A stretch of 64,000 nucleotides of DNA, taken from positions 1 through 64,000 of the forward strand of contig NZ_FRBC01000012.1 of NCBI RefSeq assembly GCF_900142515.1. Reading direction: 5' to 3'. The stretch comes from Pseudoselenomonas ruminantium. GTDB lineage: Bacteria > Bacillota > Negativicutes > Selenomonadales > Selenomonadaceae. Shown one piece after another: positions 3,798-49,223 of the stretch. Numbering within the stretch: the stretch's first letter is position 1; every line of letters begins with the position of its first letter. The notes under the pieces were generated by a model, which had not been told where the DNA came from, searched no databases, and saw only the letters and a list, made by a program, of their open reading frames with translations. Made by a program: the position numbers and the translations under genes.

Positions 3798-6039
3798 ATC
3801 CAGTCCCCCCTTCCCCTTGCCGGGCAGTATTATCCCGTTCGGCAATCAGCCGTTTATAGGGGCCATCCTGCCCGATGAGCTGGCGATGGCGGCCCCGTTC
3901 CACCACTTTCCCATGGTCAAGGACGATGATCTCATCACAGTCCCGGATCGTGGACAGACGATGCGCCACCACCAGACAGGTGCAGCCCCGATGACGGATA
4001 TTTTCCAGCACCTGTTTTTCCGTGATGGGGTCCAGTGCCGAAGTTGCCTCATCCAGCACCAGCAAGGCCGGATTGACCGCCAAGGCCCGGGCGATTTCCA
4101 ACCGCTGCCGCTGCCCGCCAGAAAAGTTCAAACCGCCTTCGGCCACCCGTGCTTCGTAACCGCCTTCCAGCCGCAGGATATCCTCATGAATGCAGGCATC
4201 CTTAGCCGCCTGTATGATATCCCTCTTGGCCACGGTGCAGTCAAAGAGCGCAATATTTTCCGCAATGGTTCCGGATATCAGGAATATATCCTGATCCACG
4301 GCTGCCACCGAATTGATGATGACCTGCCGCGGCAGGTCGCGGCGGGGAATTCCATCGAAAGCCACCGTTCCCCGCCATTCCTCATAAAGTCCCGTAACGA
4401 TTTTGGCCAGCGTGGATTTGCCGCTGCCAGAAGCTCCCACCACGGCAATCCAGGCCCCCGGCGCCGCGTGCAGGGAAAAATTTTCCAAGAGCGGCGCTTC
4501 GAGCGGACTATAGCCAAAGCAGACGTCCGTGAGCGTCAACTCTCCCGACAGGCGCGCACGGGAGAAACTCTGCCGCTCCTGCTGGGCCGGAGTTGGAAAA
4601 TTCAAATCATCCACCTCATAGCAGCGCACATCGTTGAGCCGCTGCATCTGCATCTCCGTGACCTGCAAGGTAGAACCCAATCCCACCAACGCATTGACCG
4701 GCGCCTGAAAACTTCCCATCAGCTGCTGGAAAGCGATGAACATACCCGCGGTCATCGTGCCCTCCATGATGGAAAAACCACCAAACGTCATGATGAGCGC
4801 ACTATTGACACCAGCCAGCAACGTGGGCAGCAAACGCACAGACAGCGACCACAGAGTCGTTTTCTGAGAGGCGACCAGCACCTTGGTCTGGTAACCTGCC
4901 CATTTGGCAAAAAAATCCCCCTCATCCCCATTGGCCTTGATGATCTCAATCATGCGCAGCCCATTCATGGCCACGCCATAAGCCTTGGCCGCATCCTGCT
5001 GCATCCGCATGTTCAGATCCGTCAGATGACGCCGCATCGCAAAAAACAGGATGATTTCCACGGAACTGAACGCAATGCCGATGAGAGTCAGCGTAACGCT
5101 GTATTGTAATAACAGCAGCAGATAGAACAGGGCAACCAAAAGATCCAGCAATGCCGTTGCCGCCGGTCCCGACAGCACCTCGGCTATGGACTGGTTGAAG
5201 CCCACGCGCCCGGCCACCTCTGCCGCATAGCGCTGCTGGAAGAACTGCATGGGCAGCCGCAGCAGATGCCAGAAATACCCGGAGGAATCCGCCAGCGTCA
5301 GCTTCCGCTGCCAGGTGGTCAGCACCACGGCCCGCAGCCAGGCCATCAGCCCCGACAGGATAAAGGCCAGCGTCATGGCCAGGCAGAACTTGAACATCCA
5401 GTCCGGATGCTTCTTCGTCAGGATATCGTCCATGAATATCTGGTTCATCACCGGCGTGGCCAGCCCCGGTACAATGGCACAAAGTTCCAGGATCAGCACG
5501 AACAGGGCAGCCCATTTATCCCGGAACAGTTTCCGGAAGATATCGGCAAAGACATTATAGCGTTTCCCTTCCGGACAGAATCCCTCCCCGGGTTCAATAT
5601 AGAGAGCTATCCCCGTATAGGAGGTGCGGAATTCTTCCAGCGGCACCCGCCGGCGTCCCATGGCTGGGTCGTTCAGATACGCCATCCCCTCCTTGATGCC
5701 CTCCAGCACCACAAAATGATTGAACTCCCAATGGATGATCAAGGGAAATGGCTTTTCTGGAATCAGCTCCAAAATCTCCTGCAGCGTCCAGCGATAACCA
5801 TCCGCCTCACAGTGCCGTGCCTTGGCCGCTTTCAATATGCAGCTGGCCTTTGAGCCATCGCGGTTCACCCCGCATTCAGCCCGCAGCTTTTCCAGCGGCA
5901 CCCACTGTCCATAGTAGGCCAGCACCATTGCCAGGCATGCCGCGCCGCATTCCGTGGCCTCCATCTGCAGTACAGTCGGCACCTTGCAGCGGCAGCTTTC
6001 CTTTCCCTTCCATGTTATCAGCTTTTCCCATAATCCCAT
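3784..6039 (-). CDS. NHLM-type peptidase-containing ABC exporter (C39 peptidase, permease, ATPase)
   Basis: A 751-residue peptidase-containing exporter. The N-terminal C39 cysteine protease (about 18-145) keeps its triad: Cys31 in the ATECGAAC motif, His108 in WEFNHFVVL, and Asp124 in LNDPAMG. The membrane domain spans about 165-450. The ATPase has Walker A GASGSGKST, signature FSGGQRQR and Walker B LVLDEATSALD. In this family the peptidase cuts after a Gly-Gly (or Gly-Ala) while the substrate is exported. A fitting substrate is encoded divergently at 8369. The gene lies 4 nt after the HlyD-type adaptor and overlaps the second transporter. Confidence 0.93.
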   Translation of the reverse strand: MGLWEKLITWKGKESCRCKVPTVLQMEATECGAACLAMVLAYYGQWVPLEKLRAECGVNRDGSKASCILKAAKARHCEADGYRWTLQEILELIPEKPFPLIIHWEFNHFVVLEGIKEGMAYLNDPAMGRRRVPLEEFRTSYTGIALYIEPGEGFCPEGKRYNVFADIFRKLFRDKWAALFVLILELCAIVPGLATPVMNQIFMDDILTKKHPDWMFKFCLAMTLAFILSGLMAWLRAVVLTTWQRKLTLADSSGYFWHLLRLPMQFFQQRYAAEVAGRVGFNQSIAEVLSGPAATALLDLLVALFYLLLLLQYSVTLTLIGIAFSSVEIILFFAMRRHLTDLNMRMQQDAAKAYGVAMNGLRMIEIIKANGDEGDFFAKWAGYQTKVLVASQKTTLWSLSVRLLPTLLAGVNSALIMTFGGFSIMEGTMTAGMFIAFQQLMGSFQAPVNALVGLGSTLQVTEMQMQRLNDVRCYEVDDLNFPTPAQQERQSFSRARLSGELTLTDVCFGYSPLEAPLLENFSLHAAPGAWIAVVGASGSGKSTLAKIVTGLYEEWRGTVAFDGIPRRDLPRQVIINSVAAVDQDIFLISGTIAENIALFDCTVAKRDIIQAAKDACIHEDILRLEGGYEARVAEGGLNFSGGQRQRLEIARALAVNPALLVLDEATSALDPITEKQVLENIRHRGCTCLVVAHRLSTIRDCDEIIVLDHGKVVERGRHRQLIGQDGPYKRLIAERDNTARQGEGGTGYAPA

Positions 6040-6043
6040 AGAC

Positions 6044-7030
6044 TCACCTCGTCCGCAGCCATTGGCTCAATTTGTAGAATACCCGTTCAATGGGCGGCCG
6101 CCGCTCGATGATAATCGACCCCTTGACAAAACTGCCCGCCGTTATCGGTTTGTGCTCTCCCACCGAAGACGTCCATAAATAGCCGGAAGCATCGCTGTCA
6201 TCCCGCACCAGGTCGAACTTGATTTCCATCACAGAACTCTGCTGTGCCTGCACGATCCAGCCGGCCATCTGCTCATTGCCCAGATTCTTCTGGATTTCCT
6301 GCAGGGAAACAGGATACTGGGAAACCGTACGCACGGTTCCCATCAGGCTGCCGGACTGTGACACATCCACACCATTGGGTGCAAGCTGGATGGTCTGACC
6401 GACCTCCACCCGCTTGCCCTTGTCCACAGGGATATAGAGCACACCGGTAAGCCCCTCGGTGGCATCGCTGATACGCAGCCTGCACACAGGCGTTCCACTG
6501 CCCACGATACTGCCTGGCTCTACCAATACCTCATCCACGATGCCATCCACAGCCGTCCGGACATACTCGGTGACATCCCGCTGATAACGATAGGAATCAA
6601 ACTCATGCGCACGGCTGGCAGCTTCCCGCTGGCTGGCAGCCAGACCTGGCCCGTATTTGGCCATACGGGTGCTGGCCTCTTCCTTAGCCTGCACCACATG
6701 GGCAATGCGCGCACCCTTGCTGACCCATTCTCCGCTATGCACATAGACTTCATCGATAAGTCCGCTGCCCTGGCTGGCTACCTTGGTCACGCCGTTGGCA
6801 TCCATGATCATCCCCATGCCATCGGCCTTCACGGTAAAAGAACCGAATACCGACCACAGAATCACGGCAAAAATCATCACCGCTACGGCAATCAGGCCCA
6901 TCCAGCCCACAGGATTCGTAATCGGCAGGATGGAATCCAGCTCATCCGGCGAGCGCATCTTCAGCAGGGCTTCTTCACTGAAAATCGAGCTATGTGCCTG
7001 CTGCTTTTCCTGTCCATTCACCCTACTCAT
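6044..7030 (-). CDS. NHLM-type secretion protein, HlyD-family periplasmic adaptor
   Basis: A 328-residue adaptor. A short cytoplasmic N-terminus (FSEEALLKMRSPDELDSILP, typical of the NHLM secretion subfamily) leads into one membrane helix at about 43-65. A periplasmic domain follows with two biotinyl/lipoyl-like half motifs (about 80-120 and 155-185) and a short coiled segment between them. It would connect the inner-membrane transporters to an outer-membrane exit. It overlaps the preceding adaptor gene by 8 nt and precedes the peptidase transporter by 4 nt. No TolC-type outer-membrane protein is encoded in the window, so a shared one would be needed. Confidence 0.88.
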   Translation of the reverse strand: MSRVNGQEKQQAHSSIFSEEALLKMRSPDELDSILPITNPVGWMGLIAVAVMIFAVILWSVFGSFTVKADGMGMIMDANGVTKVASQGSGLIDEVYVHSGEWVSKGARIAHVVQAKEEASTRMAKYGPGLAASQREAASRAHEFDSYRYQRDVTEYVRTAVDGIVDEVLVEPGSIVGSGTPVCRLRISDATEGLTGVLYIPVDKGKRVEVGQTIQLAPNGVDVSQSGSLMGTVRTVSQYPVSLQEIQKNLGNEQMAGWIVQAQQSSVMEIKFDLVRDDSDASGYLWTSSVGEHKPITAGSFVKGSIIIERRPPIERVFYKLSQWLRTR

Positions 7031-8186
7031 CTCCTACGCTCACATCTACCCGCATGCCATCTTTCAGCCCTTCCAGATTTCCCGTAAGGACCACTTCACC
7101 TTCCTGAAGCCCGTCCAAAATTTCGACGAAGCCTTCATCACTGATACCAGCAGCAACGCTGCGCAGATGGATGATGCCTTCGCCATCCACCACCATTACC
7201 TGGCTGAAATCCGCATCCACCATCGCCTTGCGTGGCACCGTCAGACAGTCATGGCTTTTTTCAGAACTCAGGATAAGGCCCATATAGGTCATCGGCTCCA
7301 ACAGGCGGCTGCAATTATCCACTTCCCAAACTGCCCGGCGGATATCAGCGGGTTCCGACAAAGGCGGCGTGATTTCCACCAATTTTGCCCGGATCTCCTG
7401 CCGGCGCCCACGATTTCCCGCAGCATAACCTGTATCATATATCTTCTGCCAAGCCCCGTTATCCGCAAACCGAAGCAGCCCCTGACTGCCCAGCTCCATG
7501 TACCTGGCATCCACGTCCCCCAATGTCATGTTGAAGCGCAAGTGATTGAAATCGCCAATCAAAGCCACCGGTGTGCCGCTCTCCACATGAGCACCTTCAC
7601 GCTGATAGATGATGAGCACATCCCCATCCACCGGCGAAGTCACCTGCAGCCAGCTGGCCTGCACGCCGTATAGTTCCTCTTCCGCCCTGGCAGACTTCAC
7701 TTCTTCCTGCGCCGCCAGATACAGTGCTTTTGCCTCCTCATAACGCTCCATAGAAGTTGCATGATAGCCCAGCAGCTGCTCCTGCCGCTGGAAACTTCCC
7801 TGCGCCCTGGCCAGATTGGCCTCTGCCCGCCGTACCTTGGTAGCTGCCTGTTGCATCTTGATGGGAATCTGCTCACTGTCCATGCTCAGGATCACATCGC
7901 CCTTATGCACGGGGCTGTTCTTCTCCACATGCCATTTCGTGAGCCGTCCAGAGGCCAGCGCTACGGCATCCGTCATATTTTGGCTATAGAACTGCACCGT
8001 ATCCATCTCCAGGCGCGGCCGGATTGGACGCACCTGCACTCTGGCGCCGGTGATGCTGACCACCCGGCTCTCCATGCGGCTGGCAATCTGTTTCTCATCA
8101 TTATAGTTAAGATAAGCGCCATAGACTACAATCATGCCAGCAATCATCAGGATGATCATGATAGCCAGATAAAAATATCTTTTCAA
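7023..8186 (-). CDS. HlyD/RND-type membrane-fusion protein, first gene of the NHLM operon
   Basis: About 387 residues from a TTG start at 8186, chosen because AGGGGG lies about 9 nt upstream and the protein then begins directly with its membrane anchor (KRYFYLAIMIILMIAGMIVVYG). An open frame reaches 8270 but adds an unlikely N-terminus. Features are a lipoyl-like half (about 75-110), a coiled-coil hairpin rich in Ala/Glu/Gln (about 115-185), the second lipoyl half, a beta-barrel region, and a C-terminal segment typical of efflux adaptors. Two different adaptors in one operon are notable: this one resembles efflux fusion proteins, the next is the NHLM type. Confidence 0.82.
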   Translation of the reverse strand: MKRYFYLAIMIILMIAGMIVVYGAYLNYNDEKQIASRMESRVVSITGARVQVRPIRPRLEMDTVQFYSQNMTDAVALASGRLTKWHVEKNSPVHKGDVILSMDSEQIPIKMQQAATKVRRAEANLARAQGSFQRQEQLLGYHATSMERYEEAKALYLAAQEEVKSARAEEELYGVQASWLQVTSPVDGDVLIIYQREGAHVESGTPVALIGDFNHLRFNMTLGDVDARYMELGSQGLLRFADNGAWQKIYDTGYAAGNRGRRQEIRAKLVEITPPLSEPADIRRAVWEVDNCSRLLEPMTYMGLILSSEKSHDCLTVPRKAMVDADFSQVMVVDGEGIIHLRSVAAGISDEGFVEILDGLQEGEVVLTGNLEGLKDGMRVDVSVGDE

Positions 8187-8368
8187 CTGCAATGGCCCCC
8201 TTATTTTTCTTTGATTTAAATATTCGCAAAAAATAGACAAAGTCCTGCTTTTACCAAAATCCCATCCCATATCCTAATCGATAAAAAATGCATTTTTCCT
8301 GTCAGGAATCGGTAACACCTGCATATATAGAGACAGAAAGAAAAACTTCTATGGAAAGGATGATTACC
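8187..8368. promoter_or_regulatory. Divergent control region between the NHLM operon and the precursor gene
   Basis: This 182-nt A/T-rich gap separates the two divergent starts. On the plus strand TATATA at 8324-8329 could be a -10 element, but no good -35 TTGACA is spaced from it; GGAAT at 8305-8309 is reminiscent of ECF -35 elements. AAAGGA at 8355-8360 is the precursor's ribosome-binding site. A sigma-specific promoter is inferred, not shown. Confidence 0.4.
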
Positions 8369-8674
8369 ATGGCAAAATTTGACAAAGGCACGACCCTCGA
8401 CACGAAGGATTTGGAAAACGTAGCAGGCGGTACTTATATCGACAGCATGCAGGTCTGCCACTTCCTCAACCAGGCAGGATATGATAATGTACTCAAAGGA
8501 GGCGTTCTGCCTAATCTGGATGGCATGCGCTCTGCTCTGAACGACATGGGAATCACCTCCAATGACCATGGTGGCTTCAGCAAAGGAAACACCTACACCA
8601 TGGGCGACAAAACACTGACTCAGGATGAACTAATGAAAGTATTGCAGGATAAATTCCCCAATGCAAAAGGTTAA
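8369..8674 (+). CDS. Double-glycine leader peptide, putative NHLM export substrate (101 aa)
   Basis: The start at 8369 is preceded by AAAGGA with 8-nt spacing; two upstream in-frame ATGs (8288, 8351) are less well placed. Residues 1-21 form a classic leader: Leu10, Leu15 and Val18 in the hydrophobic positions, acidic residues between them, and Gly20-Gly21 at the cut site (LDTKDLENVAGG). Cleavage would release an 80-residue, hydrophilic, nearly neutral product. It has a single cysteine (Cys9 of the product), several Gly/Asn/Asp turns and a C-terminal helix (TLTQDELMKVLQDKF). It does not look like a pore-forming bacteriocin. No lanthipeptide, YcaO, radical SAM or other modifying enzyme is adjacent, and no immunity gene is evident. 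Confidence 0.85.
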   Translation: MAKFDKGTTLDTKDLENVAGGTYIDSMQVCHFLNQAGYDNVLKGGVLPNLDGMRSALNDMGITSNDHGGFSKGNTYTMGDKTLTQDELMKVLQDKFPNAKG

Positions 8675-8679
8675 AATGA

Positions 8680-8723
8680 CACAAAACGGCCCACTGGCAA
8701 AAATGCCAGTGGGCCGTTTTGTG
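8680..8723. terminator. Bidirectional terminator between precursor gene and sugar operon
   Basis: A perfect 20-bp stem (8680-8699 with 8704-8723) with an AAAA loop carries A-rich and T-rich flanks on both sides. It ends the precursor mRNA on the plus strand and the minus-strand operon whose last stop is at 8751. Confidence 0.92.
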
Positions 8724-8750
8724 CATAGATCATTTGAATAGTAGCCAGCA

Positions 8751-9374
8751 TCACTCGCCGCATACAACGCGGGCAGCTGCTGCCCGTTTATATTCAATAT
8801 AGGCAAGGATTGTATCTGCTGCCACTGATAATGGTATACTGCTGGTATTGATCATCAGATCATAATTTGTGGGTTCTCCCCAAATCTGACCAGTGTAGAA
8901 CTCGTAATACTGTTTACGGCGGTTTTCTTCCCGGTTGAGGTCTCTGAGCGTCATTCCCTGATACTTCGTCTTGCAGCGTGCGGATCGAAAATCATCATCT
9001 GCATAGATGAAGAAAGAAAATACATCTTTACGGTTGCGCAGGATATAATCTGCGCAACGCCCCAAAAAGATCGCACTTTCCGGCCGTTCTGCCAAATTCA
9101 GGATGATCTTGGCCTGCTCAATATACATCCGGTTGTTCTCGACAATGCGTTCACGCCCCTCATATTTGTCCAGATTCCCCTGCGCCTCCTCCGGGGCATG
9201 ATAGGAACGCGCAATGGCCTCTTCAATGTGGATGCCGTTATGCAGGTTCTGCGCAGCCATTTCCACCAGCTTGCTATTATAATGGTGGCAGTGAAGTTTT
9301 TTCGTCAAAATCTCAGCAATCTCCCGGCCACCACTGCCAAATTGGCGGGAAATCGTTATCAATGTCTTTTCCAT
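8751..9374 (-). CDS. Cytidylate kinase-like family protein
   Basis: A 207-residue P-loop protein starting TLITISRQFGSGGREIAEIL, the form of Walker A seen in the cytidylate-kinase-like family, followed by a lid-like region rich in Arg (about 125-165). This family is shorter and more divergent than true Cmk and its substrate is unknown. It lies 32 nt behind the GPH transporter and in front of the terminator, so it is probably the last gene of the sugar operon. Its role there is unclear; it could act on a nucleotide or on another small substrate. Confidence 0.75.
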   Translation of the reverse strand: MEKTLITISRQFGSGGREIAEILTKKLHCHHYNSKLVEMAAQNLHNGIHIEEAIARSYHAPEEAQGNLDKYEGRERIVENNRMYIEQAKIILNLAERPESAIFLGRCADYILRNRKDVFSFFIYADDDFRSARCKTKYQGMTLRDLNREENRRKQYYEFYTGQIWGEPTNYDLMINTSSIPLSVAADTILAYIEYKRAAAARVVCGE

Positions 9375-9406
9375 CCGCGGAAATCCTCCCTTTCATTGGT
9401 TCAAGC

Positions 9407-10801
9407 TTATCGCTGCGCCTGCGGATCATAACAGGGAATTGCCTGAATGATTTCCGGTGTTTCTTCCTGCTGTGCCAAAATCTGCCGGCGCAGATTGAGT
9501 TCCGCCTTCATATCCGTACGGATCGCATCCAGCTTATAGAAATAAATCAGCGACGCAATCACAACGCACAAGAGCAGCGGCAGCCAAATAAAGCAGGTCT
9601 CGATTGCCGAAAGAGACGAAGCGCTCTGCACAGCATTAGGAACATAACCTCCCATATTCAGGAAAATCCCCACGACAAAACTGGTCAGCCCCATGCCACC
9701 TTTGACAAAAAAACCTTGAAAAGCTGCAATCAGGCCAGCAACGCTCTTATTCTTCTTATACTCCGAATAGTCAATGACATCTGGCTGCATGGCAAAGGTG
9801 ATGCCGAAAATACCATACATCCCCAATCCTGTAATGACCAGGCCAGCCAACAGGCACACCAGGGAATCCTGCCCAAAGTAGATCAACAAGTCTCCCGCAA
9901 TGTATAAAGCAGCACTAAAGAACATCAGGCTGCGCTTGGGGAAATGCTTCTCCAACGCGGGCAGTGCCAGCAACATCGGCAGCCCGGAAAGAATACCTAG
10001 AACGCCAACCAATGCCAGTAAATCCGCATGATTCAGATTATACCGAAAATAGTAGATAATCGTCGTATTGCGAACCACATAGAGGGAAAAATAAAAGAGA
10101 TTCAGGAAGAACAAAATCCAAGCCTGCCCTGTAAGCCCTTGGAGACTATCTTTCAAGCTGGCATGCTCATTCGTGACTGTGGTCGGCACCACTTCCTTGG
10201 TGCTGGAAAAGGTAAAGAAAAAAATGCACATGGCCACAATGCCGTACAACGTCATCGTAACCAAATATCCTTGAGCCGGGTCATTCCCGCCAAAAAAATC
10301 AACCAACGGTGCCGTAATCGACATAACGACAGCAGTACCAATCATGGCACAGATCATACGGGTTGATACGAGAATATCACGTTCATGAACATCCGAGGTA
10401 AGGCGCGGCACAATCGTATTGAGCGGAATATTGACTACCGTGTAAGCGGTGCACAACAGGCAATAAGTCACATAAGCCCAAATCAGTTTGCCCGTTGCGT
10501 CAAAATCAGGAATATAAAAGGTCAGGAATGTAAAGATTGCAAAGGGAACAGCACCAATCAGGAAATAAGGACGCCCCTGCCCCCAACGGCTTTTCGTATG
10601 GTCTACTACGATTCCCATAACCGTATCCGTTATCGCATCGATAAACTTCGTTACCAGCATCATCGTCCCTGCAGCCACAGCAGCAATACCAAAAACATCG
10701 GTATAGAACACCATCAGATATGAAGCCATCGTACTGAACACCAGATTACAGCCCAGATCACCCATACCGTATCCAATGCGGATGCGCCATTTACTCATCA
10801 T
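9407..10801 (-). CDS. GPH-family sugar:cation symporter (MelB/XynP-like)
   Basis: A 464-residue protein with about 12 membrane helices. The N-terminus (RIRIGYGMGDLGCNLVFSTMASYLMVFYTDVFGI) and the later motif VVDHTKSRWGQGRPYFLIGA, with its Arg/Lys-rich cytoplasmic loop, are typical of glycoside-pentoside-hexuronide:cation symporters. An AGGAGG site 8 nt upstream fixes the start. It follows the FGGY kinase by 15 nt. With the dehydrogenase and kinase it would import the sugar, sugar alcohol or glycoside that the operon degrades, probably driven by Na+ or H+. The exact substrate cannot be read from the sequence. Confidence 0.88.
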   Translation of the reverse strand: MMSKWRIRIGYGMGDLGCNLVFSTMASYLMVFYTDVFGIAAVAAGTMMLVTKFIDAITDTVMGIVVDHTKSRWGQGRPYFLIGAVPFAIFTFLTFYIPDFDATGKLIWAYVTYCLLCTAYTVVNIPLNTIVPRLTSDVHERDILVSTRMICAMIGTAVVMSITAPLVDFFGGNDPAQGYLVTMTLYGIVAMCIFFFTFSSTKEVVPTTVTNEHASLKDSLQGLTGQAWILFFLNLFYFSLYVVRNTTIIYYFRYNLNHADLLALVGVLGILSGLPMLLALPALEKHFPKRSLMFFSAALYIAGDLLIYFGQDSLVCLLAGLVITGLGMYGIFGITFAMQPDVIDYSEYKKNKSVAGLIAAFQGFFVKGGMGLTSFVVGIFLNMGGYVPNAVQSASSLSAIETCFIWLPLLLCVVIASLIYFYKLDAIRTDMKAELNLRRQILAQQEETPEIIQAIPCYDPQAQR

Positions 10802-10816
10802 CTCTGCTCCCTCCTC

Positions 10817-12409
10817 TTACCAGTCCAATGCGGCAATTGCAGCCTTTTCCACACATAAACCAGCACGATAATGCTGCATGAATTTATTGAATCCATTTAT
10901 CTCATCCTGCGATGCTTCCACGCTATCGCCGTCCAATTCCGCAAAGATACGGTGATTGAGATAATCCCCCAGACTTTCCCCGGGCTGCCGGTCAAGCCGA
11001 TAAGCCGCCAGCAGTGCAATGCCCCAGGCACCGCCCTCACTGGCTGTATTCATAACGATTACGGGTGCTTCGCAAGCCGCAGAGAGATAACGCTGTCCTA
11101 CACCCTTCGTCTTGAAAAAACCGCCATGCCCCATGATGCGGTCGACCTCTACGCCTTCTTCTTTCAGGATATCCAGCCCCATCTTCACGGCCCCCAAGGA
11201 AGTGTAAAGATTCGCCTTCATGAAATTGGCCAGATTGAACCTGCTGTCCACGGTACGCAAAAAGATGGGCCGTCCTTCGTTGATCATGGTGATATTCTCC
11301 CCGGAATAATATCCATAAGGAAGCAAACCGCCACAATCTGCATCGCCATTCAAAGAATTCGTATACAATTGGGTGAACAAATCTCCCTTGCTGACCTCAT
11401 ATCCCATCAATTGGGCAAATTCGCCAAATATATTGACCCAGGCATTGAGATCTGTAGTCCCATTATTCGCGTGAGACATCGCACAAGGTGCCCCCGTGGG
11501 CGTTGCCACCATGTCGATTTCCCGATGCAGGTTCGCCAGCGGGCGTTCCAGAACAATCATCGCAAAGGTACTAGTCCCAGCTGAGACATTGCCTGTACGA
11601 GGAGCGACGGCATTCGTAGCCGTCATGCCAGTTCCGGCATCGCCTTCCGGCGGACAAAACGGAATGCCCGCTTGCAGATCGCCATCTGCATCCAACAATC
11701 CCACGCCATGTTGCGTAAGCCTGCCGGCATCTTCTCCCGCTACCAAAACCCGCGGCAATACATGGCGAAGCTGCCAGGAATATCCATATGGCTGCAGAAG
11801 CTCATCAAACTGCTGCACCATGGCATCCACATAGTCATTCTTTACCGGATCTACGGGAAACATTCCTGAAGCATCCCCGATACCGATCACTCGCTCTCCT
11901 GTCAGCTGCCAGTGGATGAAGCCAGCCAACGTTGATACATAATCCAGCTCCTGCACATGTTTTTCCTGATCCAGAATGCGCTGATAGAGATGCGCCACCG
12001 TCCACCGAAGGGGAATATTGAACTGAAACAACTCAGTCAGACGGTTGGCTGCCTCCTGTGTATTCGTATTGCGCCAGGTCTGAAAAGGCGCCAGCAATTC
12101 ACCGGCTGCATCAAACGCCATGTAGCCATGCATCATCGCACTGACTCCCATCGCGCCAAAACCTGTCAGCGTGATACCATATTGCCGCCTGACTTCCTGT
12201 TTCAACGACTGATAACAGCTGCGGAGGCCCGCATAGATGTCCTGCAGATGAAAGGTCCATATTCCATTCTCAAAGGAATTCTCCCAGTCATGGATACCAA
12301 CGGCCAGTACCTCCCCGGAAAGATTAACCAGAACCGCCTTGATGCGTGTTGACCCGAATTCAATACCAAGTGCCGTGCGTTTATTGCAAATATCCGCTTT
12401 CGCCGTCAT
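10817..12409 (-). CDS. FGGY-family carbohydrate kinase (xylulokinase/ribulokinase-like)
   Basis: A 530-residue sugar kinase. The N-terminal ATPase fold starts with LGIEFGSTRIKAVLV, the phosphate-1 motif; GFGAMGVSAMMHGYMAFD is the substrate-domain region. The C-terminal half has the adenosine-binding motif around IMGHGGFFKTKGVGQRYLSAA. Length fits the FGGY family. It should phosphorylate a ketose, presumably the product of the dehydrogenase encoded just upstream. The substrate (xylulose, ribulose or another) is not resolved. The 60-nt gap to the dehydrogenase gene holds a 7-bp hairpin (12431-12437 with 12445-12451) without a T-tract, which may protect or process the mRNA. Confidence 0.88.
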   Translation of the reverse strand: MTAKADICNKRTALGIEFGSTRIKAVLVNLSGEVLAVGIHDWENSFENGIWTFHLQDIYAGLRSCYQSLKQEVRRQYGITLTGFGAMGVSAMMHGYMAFDAAGELLAPFQTWRNTNTQEAANRLTELFQFNIPLRWTVAHLYQRILDQEKHVQELDYVSTLAGFIHWQLTGERVIGIGDASGMFPVDPVKNDYVDAMVQQFDELLQPYGYSWQLRHVLPRVLVAGEDAGRLTQHGVGLLDADGDLQAGIPFCPPEGDAGTGMTATNAVAPRTGNVSAGTSTFAMIVLERPLANLHREIDMVATPTGAPCAMSHANNGTTDLNAWVNIFGEFAQLMGYEVSKGDLFTQLYTNSLNGDADCGGLLPYGYYSGENITMINEGRPIFLRTVDSRFNLANFMKANLYTSLGAVKMGLDILKEEGVEVDRIMGHGGFFKTKGVGQRYLSAACEAPVIVMNTASEGGAWGIALLAAYRLDRQPGESLGDYLNHRIFAELDGDSVEASQDEINGFNKFMQHYRAGLCVEKAAIAALDW

Positions 12410-12469
12410 AACGTTTCTTCCTTTCCCCCAGCCAGCATAAAGACTGCTGGCCGGGTTATCTTGTTTTAC

Positions 12470-13246
12470 TCAGAAACAAGTAAATGCACCATCTACGATC
12501 ACATCAGTACCTGTGGTGAATGTGCTGGCATCACCGGCGAGATAAACACAGATTGCTTCCAATTCTTCCGGTTTCCCCATACGCCCCATCGGTGCCATCG
12601 CATTCCATTGCTCAATCAACGGAATCAATGTCGGCGAATTCATCGTAAGTTCCGTTGCGATATATCCAGGGCTGATGCTATTGACCCGCACTTTCTTCTT
12701 GGCCCATTCGATGGCCAAGGACTTCGTCAGCTGGATAACAGCGGCCTTCGATGCATTATAGGCACATTGCGGCTGCGGCACATTGACGATATGAGCTGAC
12801 ATCGATGCCGTATTGATGATAGAACCACCGCCATGAGCCAGCATATATTTCCCCGCAGCGATATCCGTCAGGAAGATTCCGTTCAAATTGATATTGATGA
12901 CCTTGAGCCACTGTTCATAGCTCATTTCCTCTGCCGGAGCATTGATGCATATCCCTGCATTATTATGGCAGAAATCCAGGCCTCCGAGCTTTTCGACCAC
13001 TTCCTGCACCATTGCCTCGACCTGCTCCTTGTCCGTGCAATCTGTCTGGATGGCAATGACTTTACGTCCCGTCTTTTCCGCAATTTCTGCGGCAGTGCGC
13101 TTAGCAGTCTCAATATCGAGATCTACAATCGCCACATCGGCACCAGCTTCAGCAAACGCTGTTGCCGTACATTTTCCGATACCTCTTGCAGCCCCCGTAA
13201 CGAACCCCTTTTTACCCGTCAATTTCATTTTTTCGATGATCCCCAT
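12470..13246 (-). CDS. SDR-family NAD(P)-dependent oxidoreductase (polyol dehydrogenase-like)
   Basis: A 258-residue classical short-chain dehydrogenase. It has the Rossmann motif TGAARGIGK, the NNAG motif, and catalytic Ser/Tyr/Lys in NTASMSA and YNASKAA, with the PG-containing loop after RVNSISPGYI. The start at 13246 is supported by AGGAG 8 nt upstream; the longer frame to 13294 overlaps promoter sequence. An aspartate (VDLD) at the end of the second strand suggests NAD+ preference. As first gene of the operon it would oxidise a sugar alcohol to a ketose for the following kinase. That pathway is inferred from the gene trio, and the substrate is unknown. Confidence 0.88.
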   Translation of the reverse strand: MGIIEKMKLTGKKGFVTGAARGIGKCTATAFAEAGADVAIVDLDIETAKRTAAEIAEKTGRKVIAIQTDCTDKEQVEAMVQEVVEKLGGLDFCHNNAGICINAPAEEMSYEQWLKVININLNGIFLTDIAAGKYMLAHGGGSIINTASMSAHIVNVPQPQCAYNASKAAVIQLTKSLAIEWAKKKVRVNSISPGYIATELTMNSPTLIPLIEQWNAMAPMGRMGKPEELEAICVYLAGDASTFTTGTDVIVDGAFTCF

Positions 13247-13273
13247 GATGACAACTCCTTTTCTGTTTACACA

Positions 13274-13283
13274 TTTTGTAAAA
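13274..13283 (-). promoter_or_regulatory. Putative operator copy 1 (TTTTACAAAA)
   Basis: The word TTTTACAAAA occurs on the minus strand here, just downstream of the expected transcript start and upstream of the dehydrogenase gene. It is one of three copies in the divergent gap, which suggests a binding site for the adjacent ROK regulator. Confidence 0.5.
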
Positions 13284-13304
13284 CTATTTTTCAAATCTGC
13301 TTAC

Positions 13305-13333
13305 ATAATAATCGCATTCAGTAGTTTTGTCAA
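13305..13333 (-). promoter_or_regulatory. Sigma-70 promoter of the SDR-kinase-transporter operon
   Basis: On the minus strand a perfect -35 TTGACA (13328-13333) is separated by 17 nt from -10 TATTAT (13305-13310). Transcription would start near 13298, about 50 nt ahead of the dehydrogenase start. Operator-like words lie on both sides. Confidence 0.85.
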
Positions 13334-13337
13334 GCGA

Positions 13338-13347
13338 TTTTACAAAA
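13338..13347 (+). promoter_or_regulatory. Putative operator copy 2 (TTTTACAAAA)
   Basis: This second exact copy lies 4 nt upstream of the -35 of the minus-strand promoter. Copies 1 and 2 bracket that promoter at about 64-nt spacing (six helical turns), an arrangement compatible with repression by looping. Confidence 0.5.
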
Positions 13348-13427
13348 AAACTAAACAAATCGATAAAGACTATGAAAGAAGGCGTCGAATATAACTACTT
13401 TGTATGGATTTCTTTTGTATTTTTTGT

Positions 13428-13433
13428 TATAAT
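13428..13433 (+). promoter_or_regulatory. -10 element of the ROK regulator gene
   Basis: TATAAT stands about 50 nt ahead of the regulator start. The -35 at 17-nt spacing (TGGATT, 13405-13410) is weak. Confidence 0.55.
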
Positions 13434-13456
13434 GAGTATAGTAATTCATAAAGTAC

Positions 13457-13466
13457 TTTTACAAAA
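13457..13466 (+). promoter_or_regulatory. Putative operator copy 3 (TTTTACAAAA)
   Basis: This third exact copy sits between the -10 and the start codon of the ROK gene, where binding would block its own transcription. Confidence 0.5.
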
Positions 13467-13482
13467 TAAATGAGGAATCTAT

Positions 13483-14610
13483 ATGAAGAACAGTATCACC
13501 CCTTATGAGATTCGCCAAACCAACCGTCAACGCATCTTTCAATACATTTATCAGAAACAAAATGTCTCCCAGCAGGATATCGCCTATGACTTGCATCTAA
13601 GCCGTCCAACCATTACCACTAACCTGACAGATTTAAAAGGGGAAGGACTTGTCAATGAAGCAGGACAAATCGACAGCGAATTAGTCGGTCGCAAACCCAG
13701 TGCCTATGCTATCAACCCCCAACACCGGGTAAGTCTCGGTGTTGAATTGCTAAGCCATCAGGTCAAGATCATTGCCATTGACCTTTACGGACGCAAGATC
13801 AGTTACGACACCTTCCAGCTGGATTTCCAACATAACGATGCATATTTCCAAAATGTCTGTGCACACATCTTACAATTCAAAGACACCTGCCAATTGACCG
13901 ATACGCAGATTCTTGGCATCGGTTTTGCCATGCAGGGGCTGATCGCACCAGATGGAAAAAAAGTCATCTATGGTAAGATTCAGGACTGCACTGGTCTCGA
14001 AATTTCCTCCATAACGAAACATCTGCCCTATCCCTGTCGTTTCATCCACGATGCCAGCAGCGCAGCTATCGCAGAACTTTGGGCTTCGCCCTCCCTTCAG
14101 GATGCCTTTTATCTCTCCCTAAGCCGTCATCTGGGTGCCACGATGATCCTGAACCGCAAAATTGTCTCCGGCATCCATGGACATAATGCCACGATCGAAC
14201 ACATCCAAATGGACCCCCAAGGGGAGCTCTGCTACTGCGGGAATCGCGGCTGTCTGGAAACCCTCTGTTCCCTGCGCGCCCTTCACCATGACCTGGAACA
14301 GATCGATTCCTTCTTCACACAGGTGCGCAATGCCGACCTGAAGGCACAGGAAATCTGGATTTCCTATCTGAAGAACCTGGCACGTGCCATCAACATACTC
14401 CATCTGATTTACGACAAGGAAATCATTCTTGGAGGCTATCTGGCACCGTATTTGCAACAGGCAGACCTCAACTATCTGTATAAAGAAATCGCTACCCAGA
14501 CACCTTTTGCCGAAGAATGGGATTTCCTGCAGATCAGCAAAATGCCCGAACACAATATCACCATTGGCGCGGCTCTTCCCTATATCCAAAAATATCTGGA
14601 ACATATTTAA
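13483..14610 (+). CDS. ROK-family transcriptional regulator (NagC/XylR type)
   Basis: A 375-residue regulator. A winged helix-turn-helix covers about 15-75 (VSQQDIAYDLHLSRPTITTNL), and a ROK sugar-kinase-like domain follows from about 83 on. The ROK zinc site is present: a His in IEHIQMDP and the cysteines of CYCGNRGCLE. It is transcribed away from the dehydrogenase-kinase-transporter operon and most likely represses it until a pathway sugar binds. It is A/T-richer in codon use than the operon it faces. A hairpin terminator follows its stop within about 15 nt. Confidence 0.9.
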   Translation: MKNSITPYEIRQTNRQRIFQYIYQKQNVSQQDIAYDLHLSRPTITTNLTDLKGEGLVNEAGQIDSELVGRKPSAYAINPQHRVSLGVELLSHQVKIIAIDLYGRKISYDTFQLDFQHNDAYFQNVCAHILQFKDTCQLTDTQILGIGFAMQGLIAPDGKKVIYGKIQDCTGLEISSITKHLPYPCRFIHDASSAAIAELWASPSLQDAFYLSLSRHLGATMILNRKIVSGIHGHNATIEHIQMDPQGELCYCGNRGCLETLCSLRALHHDLEQIDSFFTQVRNADLKAQEIWISYLKNLARAINILHLIYDKEIILGGYLAPYLQQADLNYLYKEIATQTPFAEEWDFLQISKMPEHNITIGAALPYIQKYLEHI

Positions 14611-46376: not shown

Positions 46377-47012
46377 TTATCCTTCCTGCTTGTCCGCGGC
46401 ATCGTCTTCCTTCGCTAATTCCTGCGCTTCATAGGGAACAGCCTGATGCCCGCTCAGAGCCTTCTGCAAGGCTTCTGCCTGCGTGCCCATGGCCTTCTTC
46501 TCCCGTTCTTCCTTCTCCGGGTCCGGCAGCTGGGACATGGTATCATCAATCACAGCCAGTTCCGACTCCAAGGTCACCTTGATTTTCCGCAGGAAATTGT
46601 TCTTCTCCCGCACCAGACGGTCATATTCCTCTACAATCACCTGTGCTTTTTTCTTGGCATCCTCGATGATCTTGTCAGCCTTCATCTCAGCTTCCTGCAC
46701 CTTGTTGGCACATTCCTTGGCCGTGTTCTCCCGGGTTTCCTCCGCATTCTTGCGGGCGTTGCTGGTCACTTCCTCCGCCGTCCTCTGGGCCACCAATAAG
46801 GTGTCCTTGAGGTTCTGCTCCAACTGCTGATACTGCTCGTTGTCCTTCTGCGCACGGGCCAGATCTTCCTTCAGACGGTCATTTTCCCGGAAAAGCTTTT
46901 CATAGTCATTGACTACCTTGTCAAGGAAATCATCGATCTCATCCTCGTTATAACCGCGGAAGCTGCGTTTGAAATCCTTGTTGTGTATGTCCATTGGTGT
47001 AAGCAAAATCAT
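46377..47012 (-). CDS. divIVA: Cell-division/polarity protein DivIVA
   Basis: A 211-residue protein. The N-terminal membrane-binding segment (LTPMDIHNKDFKRSFRGYNEDEIDDFLDKVVNDYEKL) is the DivIVA hallmark. Two coiled-coil stretches (about 30-70 and 75-165) and a charged tail follow. It binds curved membrane at poles and septa and recruits division factors. It heads the divIVA-lspA-rluD-pyrR group and is separated from its usual partners sepF and ylmH by an oppositely oriented radical SAM gene. Confidence 0.94.
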   Translation of the reverse strand: MILLTPMDIHNKDFKRSFRGYNEDEIDDFLDKVVNDYEKLFRENDRLKEDLARAQKDNEQYQQLEQNLKDTLLVAQRTAEEVTSNARKNAEETRENTAKECANKVQEAEMKADKIIEDAKKKAQVIVEEYDRLVREKNNFLRKIKVTLESELAVIDDTMSQLPDPEKEEREKKAMGTQAEALQKALSGHQAVPYEAQELAKEDDAADKQEG

Positions 47013-47080
47013 TATCCCCTATCTGTATAGCAGAATCATATCCACCAGTTTTCTTTTACTACTTAGACTATACTAACATA

Positions 47081-47110
47081 TTTTTTACAAAAATGCTACT
47101 TTGTAAAAAA
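47081..47110. repeat. Inverted repeat between divIVA and the radical SAM gene
   Basis: The arms TTTTTTACAAA (47081-47091) and TTTGTAAAAAA (47100-47110) are perfect around an 8-nt spacer. The left arm contains TTTTACAAAA, the same word found three times at the ROK control region. It may be an operator or a terminator relic. A second imperfect repeat lies at about 47130-47159. Confidence 0.55.
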
Positions 47111-47202
47111 AGACAGGCTGCCATAAGAAGGATATCGCTACCATTTCAGCGAAATATCCGTTAGGATTTAGTCTATAGTCAATCACGGAAGGAGATTCAT
47201 AT

Positions 47203-48363
47203 ATGTTCCACGTTGCAATCTACGGCTCGGAAACATTCAGCACCATCATCAGACATACCATCGAAAATCAGTATAACAAGGCTACGATCAATGCAGGTGG
47301 TGCCCCCTTAAAAGTGCTTGCCTTCTGGAATCTAGCTGCGTCTCAGGAATCAATAAAGGAAGACTTGCCTGTTTTGGATTTTCTGCAAATGAGAGCCTTA
47401 TATACGCAAGGAATTATTAACGGCATTATTATCCCCAGGGAACTCCTTTCATCCCAAACCAATTTAGTATCGCTTATCGTCCGCAATGGCATCAACGTGG
47501 AAGATATCTATCTAACCGGACGGCTTAACGAAAAAGCTCTGCTAGAAAAACAGATTCTCTCCTTCCTTAGTCCATGGCTCAATGCCAGTTATCTACCTTA
47601 CTTGGAATTCCATATCGCAGATCAATGCAATTTGAATTGCAAAGCTTGCGAGCATTATTCTGGTCTAGTAAAAACTCCCCACTATCCTGATTTCAAACAA
47701 TTTACCCAAGATTTTCACAAACTCCATCAATTCATCAGTGATATTGGTATCATCCGCATTCTAGGCGGAGAACCATTGCTCAATCCTAAAATTGATGATT
47801 ATATCCAACTAAGCCGCCAGTTATACCCAGCCGCCAACCTCTTCGTAGTCACCAATGCCATACTCCTTATGAAAATGCCCGCACATTTCTATGATACTCT
47901 GAAAGAAACCGACACGAACATCCATATCTCCTTTTATCCCCCCTTGGAAAAGAAAATGTCAGAAATTGAAGCTTTTTTGCAAAAAAAAGGGATTTCCTAC
48001 TATATTTCACCACTCATACACAAATTCGAAATGAAACAAACACTGCGCAAGACTGCTTCTCCCGATTATTTTTACCGCTGTTCCCAATCCCGCTGCCATA
48101 ACCTGTATGATGGCAAAATTGCCGCCTGCTTTCTCCCTTTTACCACAAAATATTTCAACGAATATTTCCATCAACATCTGCCTGAAGATGGCGCCATAGA
48201 TTTATACACGCCCGGCCTGACTACGGAAATTCTGAAAACAAAACTAATGCAGCCATTTGAACGCTGCTATTATTGTCAAGATTCCATATCCGTTGACTGG
48301 GAACAAATAAAAAATCCCAGTACACTTGCAGACTGGCTGGCAGAGGAAAATCAATCCCTATAA
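47203..48363 (+). CDS. Radical SAM protein of unknown function
   Basis: A 386-residue protein. The radical SAM cluster motif is Cys142-Cys146-Cys149 (CNLNCKACEH), followed by ILGGEPLLNP, the GGE motif that binds the SAM amino group. The first ~130 residues form a separate region starting HVAIYGSETF, reminiscent of a nucleotide-binding fold (weak). Later cysteines (CSQSRC, CYYC) may bind an extra cluster, as in SPASM-type enzymes. GGAAGGAG gives a strong ribosome site. It has no co-directional neighbour or candidate substrate peptide, is A/T-richer than the surrounding genes, and splits the ylmH/divIVA cluster. I do not recognise the function; similar enzymes occur near sugar-polymer and peptide-modification genes. 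Confidence 0.87.
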   Translation: MFHVAIYGSETFSTIIRHTIENQYNKATINAGGAPLKVLAFWNLAASQESIKEDLPVLDFLQMRALYTQGIINGIIIPRELLSSQTNLVSLIVRNGINVEDIYLTGRLNEKALLEKQILSFLSPWLNASYLPYLEFHIADQCNLNCKACEHYSGLVKTPHYPDFKQFTQDFHKLHQFISDIGIIRILGGEPLLNPKIDDYIQLSRQLYPAANLFVVTNAILLMKMPAHFYDTLKETDTNIHISFYPPLEKKMSEIEAFLQKKGISYYISPLIHKFEMKQTLRKTASPDYFYRCSQSRCHNLYDGKIAACFLPFTTKYFNEYFHQHLPEDGAIDLYTPGLTTEILKTKLMQPFERCYYCQDSISVDWEQIKNPSTLADWLAEENQSL

Positions 48364-48387
48364 ATCATAAAACCATAACACAAAAAA

Positions 48388-48416
48388 CTCCTGCTCGGAT
48401 CATTCCCGAGCAGGAG
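48388..48416. terminator. Bidirectional terminator between radical SAM gene and ylmH
   Basis: A perfect 11-bp stem (48388-48398 with 48406-48416) with a 7-nt loop lies between two converging genes; TTTTTT follows on the minus strand and CTTTCT on the plus strand. Confidence 0.9.
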
Positions 48417-48428
48417 CTTTCTCTCACA

Positions 48429-49223
48429 TTACAAATATCGCTTCAATACAACCACAGTGCGTCCTTTTTTCGTGGTTCCCCGGACCTCGGCTACCTCCAG
48501 CCGGCCTCTGCCACGCATGGAGAGGATGTCGCCTTCCTTGACATTCTGGGAAGCGCTCTTGACTGGCTGCCAGTTGATCTTGAGCTTGTCGGCAGCGATG
48601 TCAGAGGCCGCCTTGCTGCGGGAGGAGCCAAAGCCGGCAGCAGCGATGGAGTCTACACGCAGTGATGCCACCGTAGCGCGGATTTCCTTGCATCGCTCTT
48701 CCTTGGGTGCGATGGAACTGAGGTCAGCGCGCTGGCATTCCACGCCCACAGCGCCAATCTTATCGAGGTTCGCCAGCAGGAAATCAGCCATCTTCTCATC
48801 ACAGATGATCTTCACGGAATCATTGGTTACCAACAGGTCCCCGATGGTATCCCGTTCAATGCCCTGCCCCATGAGTGCCCCGAGCACGTCACGATGGCTG
48901 AGCCGGGCAAACTGCCCATTCCATTTAGCTTCGATGCAATCAATGCCGAAGCTGGTTGGCGTACCAGCAAAGTCCTCATGGATGAAGACAGCCCTAGCCC
49001 GCTCGGCCCCCTGATAGCCGCCGGCAAAGTCCACGCGGATATTGCCATAGTTGGCCGCCACAGTTTCAGCGATTTCCTGTCCAAAGGGATCGAGAAAACC
49101 GGAAATGCGGAACTTCTGAGTGCGCAGGATATTTTCGGCCAAATCCACCAGTTTGACCACAATCTCTTCACCTTCGGTGCCTTTATAGAACCGAATCAGT
49201 TTTTCTTTCTGTTCACTTGCCAT
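48429..49223 (-). CDS. ylmH: S4-domain RNA-binding protein YlmH
   Basis: A 264-residue protein. The N-terminal two-thirds is the YlmH-specific region, including SFGIDCIEAKWNGQFARLSHRDVLGALMGQGIERDTIGDLLV. The C-terminus (about 185-255) is an S4 RNA-binding domain (LRVDSIAAAGFGSSRSKAASDIAADKLKINW). Known homologues sit in the division cluster and act in ribosome rescue or on stalled ribosomes. The start is 16 nt after the sepF stop; ylmG, often found between them, is absent. Confidence 0.93.
   Translation of the reverse strand: MASEQKEKLIRFYKGTEGEEIVVKLVDLAENILRTQKFRISGFLDPFGQEIAETVAANYGNIRVDFAGGYQGAERARAVFIHEDFAGTPTSFGIDCIEAKWNGQFARLSHRDVLGALMGQGIERDTIGDLLVTNDSVKIICDEKMADFLLANLDKIGAVGVECQRADLSSIAPKEERCKEIRATVASLRVDSIAAAGFGSSRSKAASDIAADKLKINWQPVKSASQNVKEGDILSMRGRGRLEVAEVRGTTKKGRTVVVLKRYL

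Follow-up and report, generated by a model that had tools for sequence, protein, structure and literature searches.

Introduction

The twitch radical SAM enzymes that act on sugars are known from antibiotic pathways. SpeY, a twitch dehydrogenase, belongs to spectinomycin synthesis. The twitch motif takes the form of a C-terminal Cx9-15Gx4C followed by CxxC, with one auxiliary cluster, and the SPASM peptide maturases have seven or eight C-terminal cysteines and two auxiliary clusters. Another branch of this chemistry is represented by HygY and NeoN, which are radical SAM epimerases of aminoglycoside sugars. In the HygY study, a cysteine is reportedly a key residue in epimerization, and a cysteine has been described in the same role for NeoN. 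BtrN, an aminocyclitol dehydrogenase, shares the twitch arrangement and has a single auxiliary cluster with four cysteine ligands (PMC9012708).

Described here is a radical SAM gene located between ylmH and divIVA in Pseudoselenomonas ruminantium (NCBI RefSeq assembly GCF_900142515.1, contig NZ_FRBC01000012.1). The window refers to the whole stretch of DNA that was analyzed, namely the first 64,000 nucleotides of this contig. An initial reading of the sequence alone held the gene to be a horizontally acquired orphan with an unknown modification target. The first part of that description is right in substance. The evidence presented below narrows the likely target to a sugar that belongs to a glycan of the cell surface or of flagellin.

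Results and Discussion

The gene and its immediate surroundings

The open reading frame extends from position 47203 to position 48363 on the plus strand and encodes 386 amino acid residues, with an ATG start and a TAA stop. As the sequence-only reading had stated, it runs opposite to divIVA (46377..47012) and ylmH (48429..49223), both on the minus strand, such that it diverges from the former, which is the downstream flank of the interval, and converges with the latter, which is the upstream flank. The strong ribosome binding site ascribed to it, GGAAGGAG, was located at 47187..47194 on the plus strand, 8 nucleotides before the ATG. The terminator ascribed to it is likewise present as a GC-rich hairpin (48388..48416, plus strand), but it does not belong to this gene exclusively. 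Because the T-run lies mainly on the minus strand, with six Ts there and a weak run on the plus strand (CTTTCTCTC), the hairpin suits ylmH at least as well, and it is annotated as the ylmH terminator and possibly that of the radical SAM gene also. On the other side of the gene, a leader of ∼90 bp precedes divIVA (47013..47102, minus strand), its limits being defined by the sequences and the ends of blastn alignments. It is possibly a separate divIVA promoter.

The gene is indeed richer in A/T than its neighbors. Its GC content of 41.4% and its GC3 value of 43.9% are the lowest among the 44 open reading frames of at least 150 residues in the window, a set that includes some shadow frames and that has a mean GC content of 52.8% (standard deviation 3.3). 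By codon-usage distance alone, it is merely ninth of the 44, and thus composition, not codon preference as such, sets it apart; the proposed comparison of GC and codon usage bore out a deviation in the former only.

The intergenic gaps on either side of the gene contain just four open reading frames, all of them chance-sized (20 to 35 residues), and none was recognized by eye as precursor-like, in keeping with the initial statement that no substrate peptide is near. A FliB-like (flagellin lysine N-methylase) match is present on the same contig 7 kb past the window (G000:C52:71065-71472), and a second such gene lies on contig C19.

Overall architecture of the protein

The radical SAM domain, with the cysteines at positions 142, 146, and 149 that had been pointed out, was borne out by a match to the Pfam radical SAM model PF04055 (33.1 bits versus a cut-off of 29.5, residues 139 to 243). 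Among the best 25 NCBIfam families listed, none reached its cut-off, such that this comparison gave no clear assignment to a known radical SAM subfamily. Two specific identities were rejected, namely prokaryotic viperin (NF038283, 34.7 bits versus a cut-off of 180) and MoaA, the GTP 3',8-cyclase (TIGR02666, 37.8 bits versus a cut-off of 284). The MoaA of the source genome is encoded by a separate gene on contig C18 (370 bits).

An AF2 model of the complete protein (47203..48363, plus strand), calculated from 40 aligned sequences, has a mean pLDDT of 94.5. For the chain beyond the N-terminal domain, the predicted fold is that of a radical SAM enzyme of the twitch type. The best structural match is SpeY (7wzv, 7wzx, 7x0b), which aligns with residues 125 to 384 with a Z-score of 24.9 and an rmsd of 2.3 over 248 residues at 20% identity. 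Foldseek likewise ranks SpeY first, as does a profile search by sequence (E-value of 8.5e-21 versus 6.6e-11 for MoaA). Next among the structural matches listed are BtrN (4m7t, Z 13.7) and SuiB (Z 12.6), such that the margin over the other radical SAM folds listed, all at 12.6 or below, is clear for SpeY and slight for BtrN. Common to SpeY and the protein described here are the core and twitch fold, the CxxxCxxCxHxS start, and the aligned auxiliary-cluster cysteines; the two differ in gene context and at the position of Cys 298, as discussed below. The N-terminal domain falls outside the part aligned with SpeY, and the BtrN alignment similarly begins at residue 124, past that domain. No solved structure of HygY or NeoN was among the listed structural and profile matches.

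The N-terminal region, which the sequence-only reading could not place, is now predicted to be a Rossmann-like domain (residues 1 to 127, 47203..47583, plus strand) similar to the domains of enzymes that use nucleotide-sugars or NAD; modeled separately, it gave a pLDDT of 93.0. Its best match is 3nkl, titled UDP-D-quinovosamine 4-dehydrogenase (Z 11.8, 111 residues, rmsd 3.0), followed by 2g6t (Z 10.9), WbaP (Z 9.9), and the NAD-binding Rex proteins (Z up to 9.6). Lower in the list, at Z-scores of 7.5 to 8.2 that can reflect merely a common arrangement, are PglD-type acetyltransferases (WeeI, PerB, and Pcryo_0637, the last at ∼8.2) and FkbM (7.8). Although the domain shares its fold with 3nkl and the PglD-type acetyltransferases, identities are only 10 to 19%, and the GxGxxG motif, as judged by eye, is not conserved. 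Because the match list mixes glycan enzymes, NAD-binding proteins, and other nucleotide-binding folds, the lower scores are ambiguous, and GxGxxG is lost, the matches favor no particular ligand for this domain.

The cysteine motifs

The motif for the SAM-binding [4Fe-4S] cluster, CxxxCxxC (Cys 142, Cys 146, and Cys 149), is followed by xHxS (47626..47649, plus strand). Its cysteines are invariant in the 40 sequences, and CxxxCxxCxHxS is found in 39 of them. A GGEP motif (residues 188 to 191, 47764..47775, plus strand) is also invariant. Near the C-terminus, where extra cysteines had been noticed, five are invariant in the same alignment (48079..48276, plus strand), namely Cys 293, Cys 298, and Cys 309, arranged as Cx4Cx5Gx4C, and the Cys 355-xx-Cys 358 pair. 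The exact Cx4Cx5Gx4C spacing is retained in 38 of the 40 sequences, the exceptions being the distant L152 and L154. The twitch form is matched by C293-x10-G304-x4-C309 together with C355xxC358, with Gly 304 present in at least 90% of the sequences, and the number of C-terminal cysteines is not that of the SPASM enzymes. Among 13 further proteins, fusions included, Cx4C is exact in nine; L092b is without the second cysteine, the spacing differs in L155 and L157, and it is unclear in L156.

On the basis of this pattern, Cys 293, Cys 309, Cys 355, and Cys 358 are proposed to be the ligands of a single auxiliary [4Fe-4S] cluster. In the profile alignment, from which the SpeY cluster ligands were themselves deduced, SpeY has cysteines in the columns of Cys 293 and Cys 309, a terminal CxxC, and a serine in the column of Cys 298. 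Since BtrN uses four cysteines and SpeY has this serine, Cys 298 is the odd fifth cysteine. That it is invariant and extra to SpeY, together with the cysteine precedent of NeoN and HygY, makes an epimerase plausible. As judged from the alignments, Cys 298 suggests a cysteine-dependent sugar epimerase over a dehydrogenase, and it could plausibly be the hydrogen donor.

The ylmH-divIVA interval

The interval between ylmH and divIVA is a hotspot of exchangeable cargo in the genus, and thus a core division locus serves in this capacity. When measured in 22 genomes of the genus, the gap was 22 to 42 bp in 12 (in one of these, G020, ylmH is frame-broken), 165 bp in one, and 1.1 to 9.8 kb in five, including the source genome (1416 bp, 47013-48428). 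In three others, where the sequence ends, it is at least 2.6, 8.1, and 11.6 kb, and in one it is at least 263 bp. The cargo consists of BrxA, BrxB, BrxC, and PglX in G010, a BREX system identified with PADLOC, with similar reading frames seen by eye in G013; a Schlafen AlbA_2 gene in G004, G005, and G014, with a remnant seen by eye in G011; and a 5'-nucleotidase in G017. The G005 site (L101 1637-9558) additionally contains an HSP90-like ATPase-domain protein, a 619-residue radical SAM protein, and a weak mad8-like match (34 bits), and is a candidate defense cluster.

By eye, a hairpin is found 3' of ylmH in the window and in G005, G006, G014, and G017. The ∼90 bp before divIVA align among the window, G005, G006, and G014; with blastn, this leader did not align with the empty sites of G002 and G009 or the filled sites of G011 and G017. 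As the leader aligns in a subset, exchange of cargo via shared flanks is possible for some sites only. The YlmH of G002, a near relative, is 98% identical to that of the source genome.

Distribution and origin

A protein search of the 22 genomes revealed the gene in the source genome only, with partial matches of 23 to 32% identity in the others. Eight of the weakly matching reading frames were given to NCBIfam; seven are MoaA above the cut-off, and the eighth, L023 (23% identity), matched no family at an E-value of 1e-20. The gene is thus no constant feature of this site in the Negativicutes, being absent from the other 21 genomes of the genus. Its presence in one genome of 22, at a place where 12 have the gap of 22 to 42 bp, agrees with the initial view of a probable horizontal gain between genes that are otherwise adjacent, and it was apparently acquired in this manner by the source genome.

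In a search of 189 genomes of the family, clear orthologues were found in 14 further genomes, the best matches being 48 to 58% identical. Some of these are partial or have internal stops, and G111 and G167 carry fragments. The orthologues of G136 and G096 each have an internal stop and an unmatched N-terminus, which may be due to decay or assembly error, and in G082 the gene is present twice, with 0.7 kb between the copies. Phylogenetic analysis of 40 proteins placed the window protein as sister to one from a Selenomonadaceae MAG (99/96). Both fall within a group of 10 Selenomonadaceae rows (96/94) that is separate from the 24 rows of the Lachnospiraceae; another six, which are distant, are ungrouped, and the branches joining the two families are weakly supported. 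Because the window protein nests in this group, its immediate source was probably within the Selenomonadaceae. The GC content of the gene is lower than that of its flanks in 10 of the 11 Selenomonadaceae loci. For the Lachnospiraceae loci, it is lower in 16 of 26, equal in one, and higher in nine, with mostly small differences. We infer that the gene came from AT-richer genomes and spread within the Selenomonadaceae.

Carriage by phages or plasmids was rejected, given that only partial matches of low identity were obtained. With tblastn, these amounted to just two phage records (29 to 30% identity) and just two plasmid records (23 to 30%), none covering 80% of the query. Viral contigs yielded one and seven partial loci (29 to 35% identity), with one contig common to both searches.

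In three proteins of 787 to 887 residues (L094, L095, and L096), a radical SAM-twitch region of the same family is joined to TPR repeats and to a middle portion that could not be placed. The neighbors of L096 resemble uvrB and uvrA by eye. The middle domain appears glycosyltransferase-like by eye; it matched no Pfam glycosyltransferase and, in the case of L095, which was the one searched, no PDB entry.

Gene neighborhoods in the Lachnospiraceae

Of the 50 related loci, 11 are of the Selenomonadaceae type, 26 contain orthologues from the Lachnospiraceae, and the remaining 13 are distant or cut. These 13 (L144, L145, and L147-L157), in which neither flagellin nor CgeB-type matches were found, were left out of the neighbor counts. 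These counts were obtained with phmmer using seeds from the same loci, many of whose flanks end early. The initial statement that no partner enzyme is near holds for the window and fails for the Lachnospiraceae relatives, where glycosyltransferases adjoin the gene and flagellin is often near. Specifically, a Glyco_trans_1_2/CgeB-type glycosyltransferase lies within 300 bp in 20 of the 26 loci and within 3 kb in 23. Flagellin is within 300 bp in three, within 3 kb in seven, and within 9 kb in 13; the other 13 have none within 9 kb. FliB-type genes occur within 9 kb in four of the 26 and Maf-type genes in two.

Each of the seven seeds used for the glycosyltransferase scores above the cut-off for PF13524. 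Since ten Lachnospiraceae genomes of 2.2 to 4.4 Mb have 4 to 15 PF13524 matches each, adjacency by chance would be expected at ∼1%. The 26 loci are not independent because near-duplicates exist among them (for example, L124/L125, L126/L127, and L123/L146). FliB was above its cut-off in L125 and in the Selenomonadaceae locus L116 (NF038110, 209.5 bits versus 85 in the latter). In L125, a PF01973 protein (127 bits, above the cut-off) is encoded 2 to 3 bp upstream of the orthologue; it also matches PseD at 108.5 bits, under the PseD cut-off of 670. PF01973 is a family that includes Maf.

Selenomonadaceae loci and the flagellin island of the source genome

In the 11 Selenomonadaceae loci, six of which have a flank shorter than 9 kb, no flagellin or CgeB-type gene was found within 9 kb. 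FliB is present in one of them (L116), and in most of those listed the orthologue lies among housekeeping genes. In G186, flagellin lies on the same contig as the orthologue, 27 kb away, and the immediate neighbors of the orthologue are an S30AE ribosome-hibernation gene and secA. The 27-kb interval encodes TPR-type proteins, a nucleotidyltransferase, an alcohol dehydrogenase, an ABC solute-binding protein, and tandem genes for proteins of ∼640 to 710 residues, one of which was checked and belongs to the sulfatase superfamily.

The source genome has 12 flagellin-domain matches, eight of which (PF00669) are on contig C26, including a weak one that by eye is FlgL-like. Its only Glyco_trans_1_2 match is also on C26, ∼11 kb from the nearest flagellin. 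The same contig carries a homologue (42% identity, 423 residues) of the L108 gene whose reading frame overlaps that of the orthologue, ∼40% identical homologues of the L111 neighbors, and, alongside the main flagellin genes, ∼40% identical homologues of the G186 tandem genes. The radical SAM gene itself is not in this flagellin/glycosyltransferase island or, within 9 kb, beside it. Maf was rejected as a partner in the source genome, there being no PF01973 match in it. A homologue of the L108-type partner is present in seven of the 22 genomes of the genus, six of them without the radical SAM gene, and thus does not track it. Flagellin was found in each of the 75 tested genomes of the family, whether or not the radical SAM gene is present, so that flagellin presence does not discriminate between them. 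Because both occur without the radical SAM gene, neither is a strict companion of it.

Near the flagellin genes (L174, G000:C26:25001-44000), positions 1642-13690 encode a PEP mutase/cytidylyltransferase, a TPP enzyme, a class-V aminotransferase, a nucleotidyltransferase, and sulfatase/phosphodiesterase-superfamily proteins. The set looks like a 2-aminoethylphosphonate pathway, which perhaps decorates the flagellin glycan.

Proposed function

We infer the substrate, the reaction, and action in trans from the fold, the cysteines, and the neighborhoods described above. The protein is probably a radical SAM enzyme of the twitch type that modifies a sugar as a surface glycan, most likely that of flagellin, is assembled. 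In the proposed scheme, the CxxxCxxC cluster would split SAM to form a 5'-deoxyadenosyl radical, which would then abstract hydrogen at a C-H(OH) position of a sugar bound in the barrel. In the favored branch, the carbon radical would be quenched from the opposite face by Cys 298 to give an epimer. Alternatively, it would be oxidized by the auxiliary cluster to give a ketone. The Rossmann-like domain may bind a nucleotide-sugar or provide the contact to a glycosyltransferase. In the source genome, the gene would be a lone piece of horizontally transferred cargo that works in trans with the C26 flagellin island.

As to the reaction, cysteine-dependent epimerization is favored, albeit tentatively. 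A dehydrogenase resembling SpeY and BtrN, of the same class and in the same pathway, would produce a keto-sugar via the auxiliary cluster and leave Cys 298 a structural role. The two closest folds are both dehydrogenases, and four of the cysteines align with those of SpeY; the fifth invariant cysteine, a serine in SpeY, and the reported HygY precedent argue against such an assignment, which is possible but somewhat doubtful. As to the pathway, the enzyme could serve the tailoring of surface polysaccharides or cell-surface glycans in general, and its proximity to flagellin in the Lachnospiraceae would then reflect shared glycan islands. CgeB-type neighbors are indeed commoner than flagellin, and no flagellin was seen by eye in the reading frames listed around the TPR-containing fusions. 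The recurrence of flagellin, Maf-type, and FliB neighbors and the contig shared with flagellin in G186 make this broader role rather unlikely.

Modification of a peptide, or of flagellin itself by RiPP-like or side-chain chemistry, appears improbable. Peptides are frequent substrates of radical SAM enzymes that have auxiliary clusters (PMC9012708), and the methylase FliB neighbors the orthologue in two checked loci. Nevertheless, no adjoining precursor-like frame was seen by eye, the five C-terminal cysteines are not seven or eight, and the Z-score of SpeY is far above those of the SPASM enzymes listed, represented by SuiB, even if that of BtrN is barely so. The BREX and Schlafen-type genes that share the hotspot in relatives, along with the weak viperin match, raise the question of a viperin-like defense gene. 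Given that this match is far under its cut-off, that viperin folds reach Z-scores of 11.8 at most, and that orthologues elsewhere lie among glycan or housekeeping genes as read by eye, such a role is very hard to credit.

Returning to the favored sugar-modifying enzyme, we put forward, as a tentative proposal, that it represents a family of flagellin-glycosylation epimerases common to the Selenomonadaceae and the Lachnospiraceae, with a Rossmann domain of the nucleotide-sugar type, a dedicated hydrogen-donor cysteine, and mobility as single-gene cargo. No radical SAM enzyme of flagellin glycans was found in the literature searched, which was mostly outside subscription journals; the one paper retrieved on the combined subject was on a Rickettsia genome. 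The proposed chemistry and the predicted fold are of a known kind; the architecture is different, there is an extra cysteine, and the gene context is new. If the proposal is true, the choice between epimer and ketone should depend on a single cysteine, and twitch radical SAM chemistry would reach the surface glycans of rumen and gut bacteria that hosts meet.
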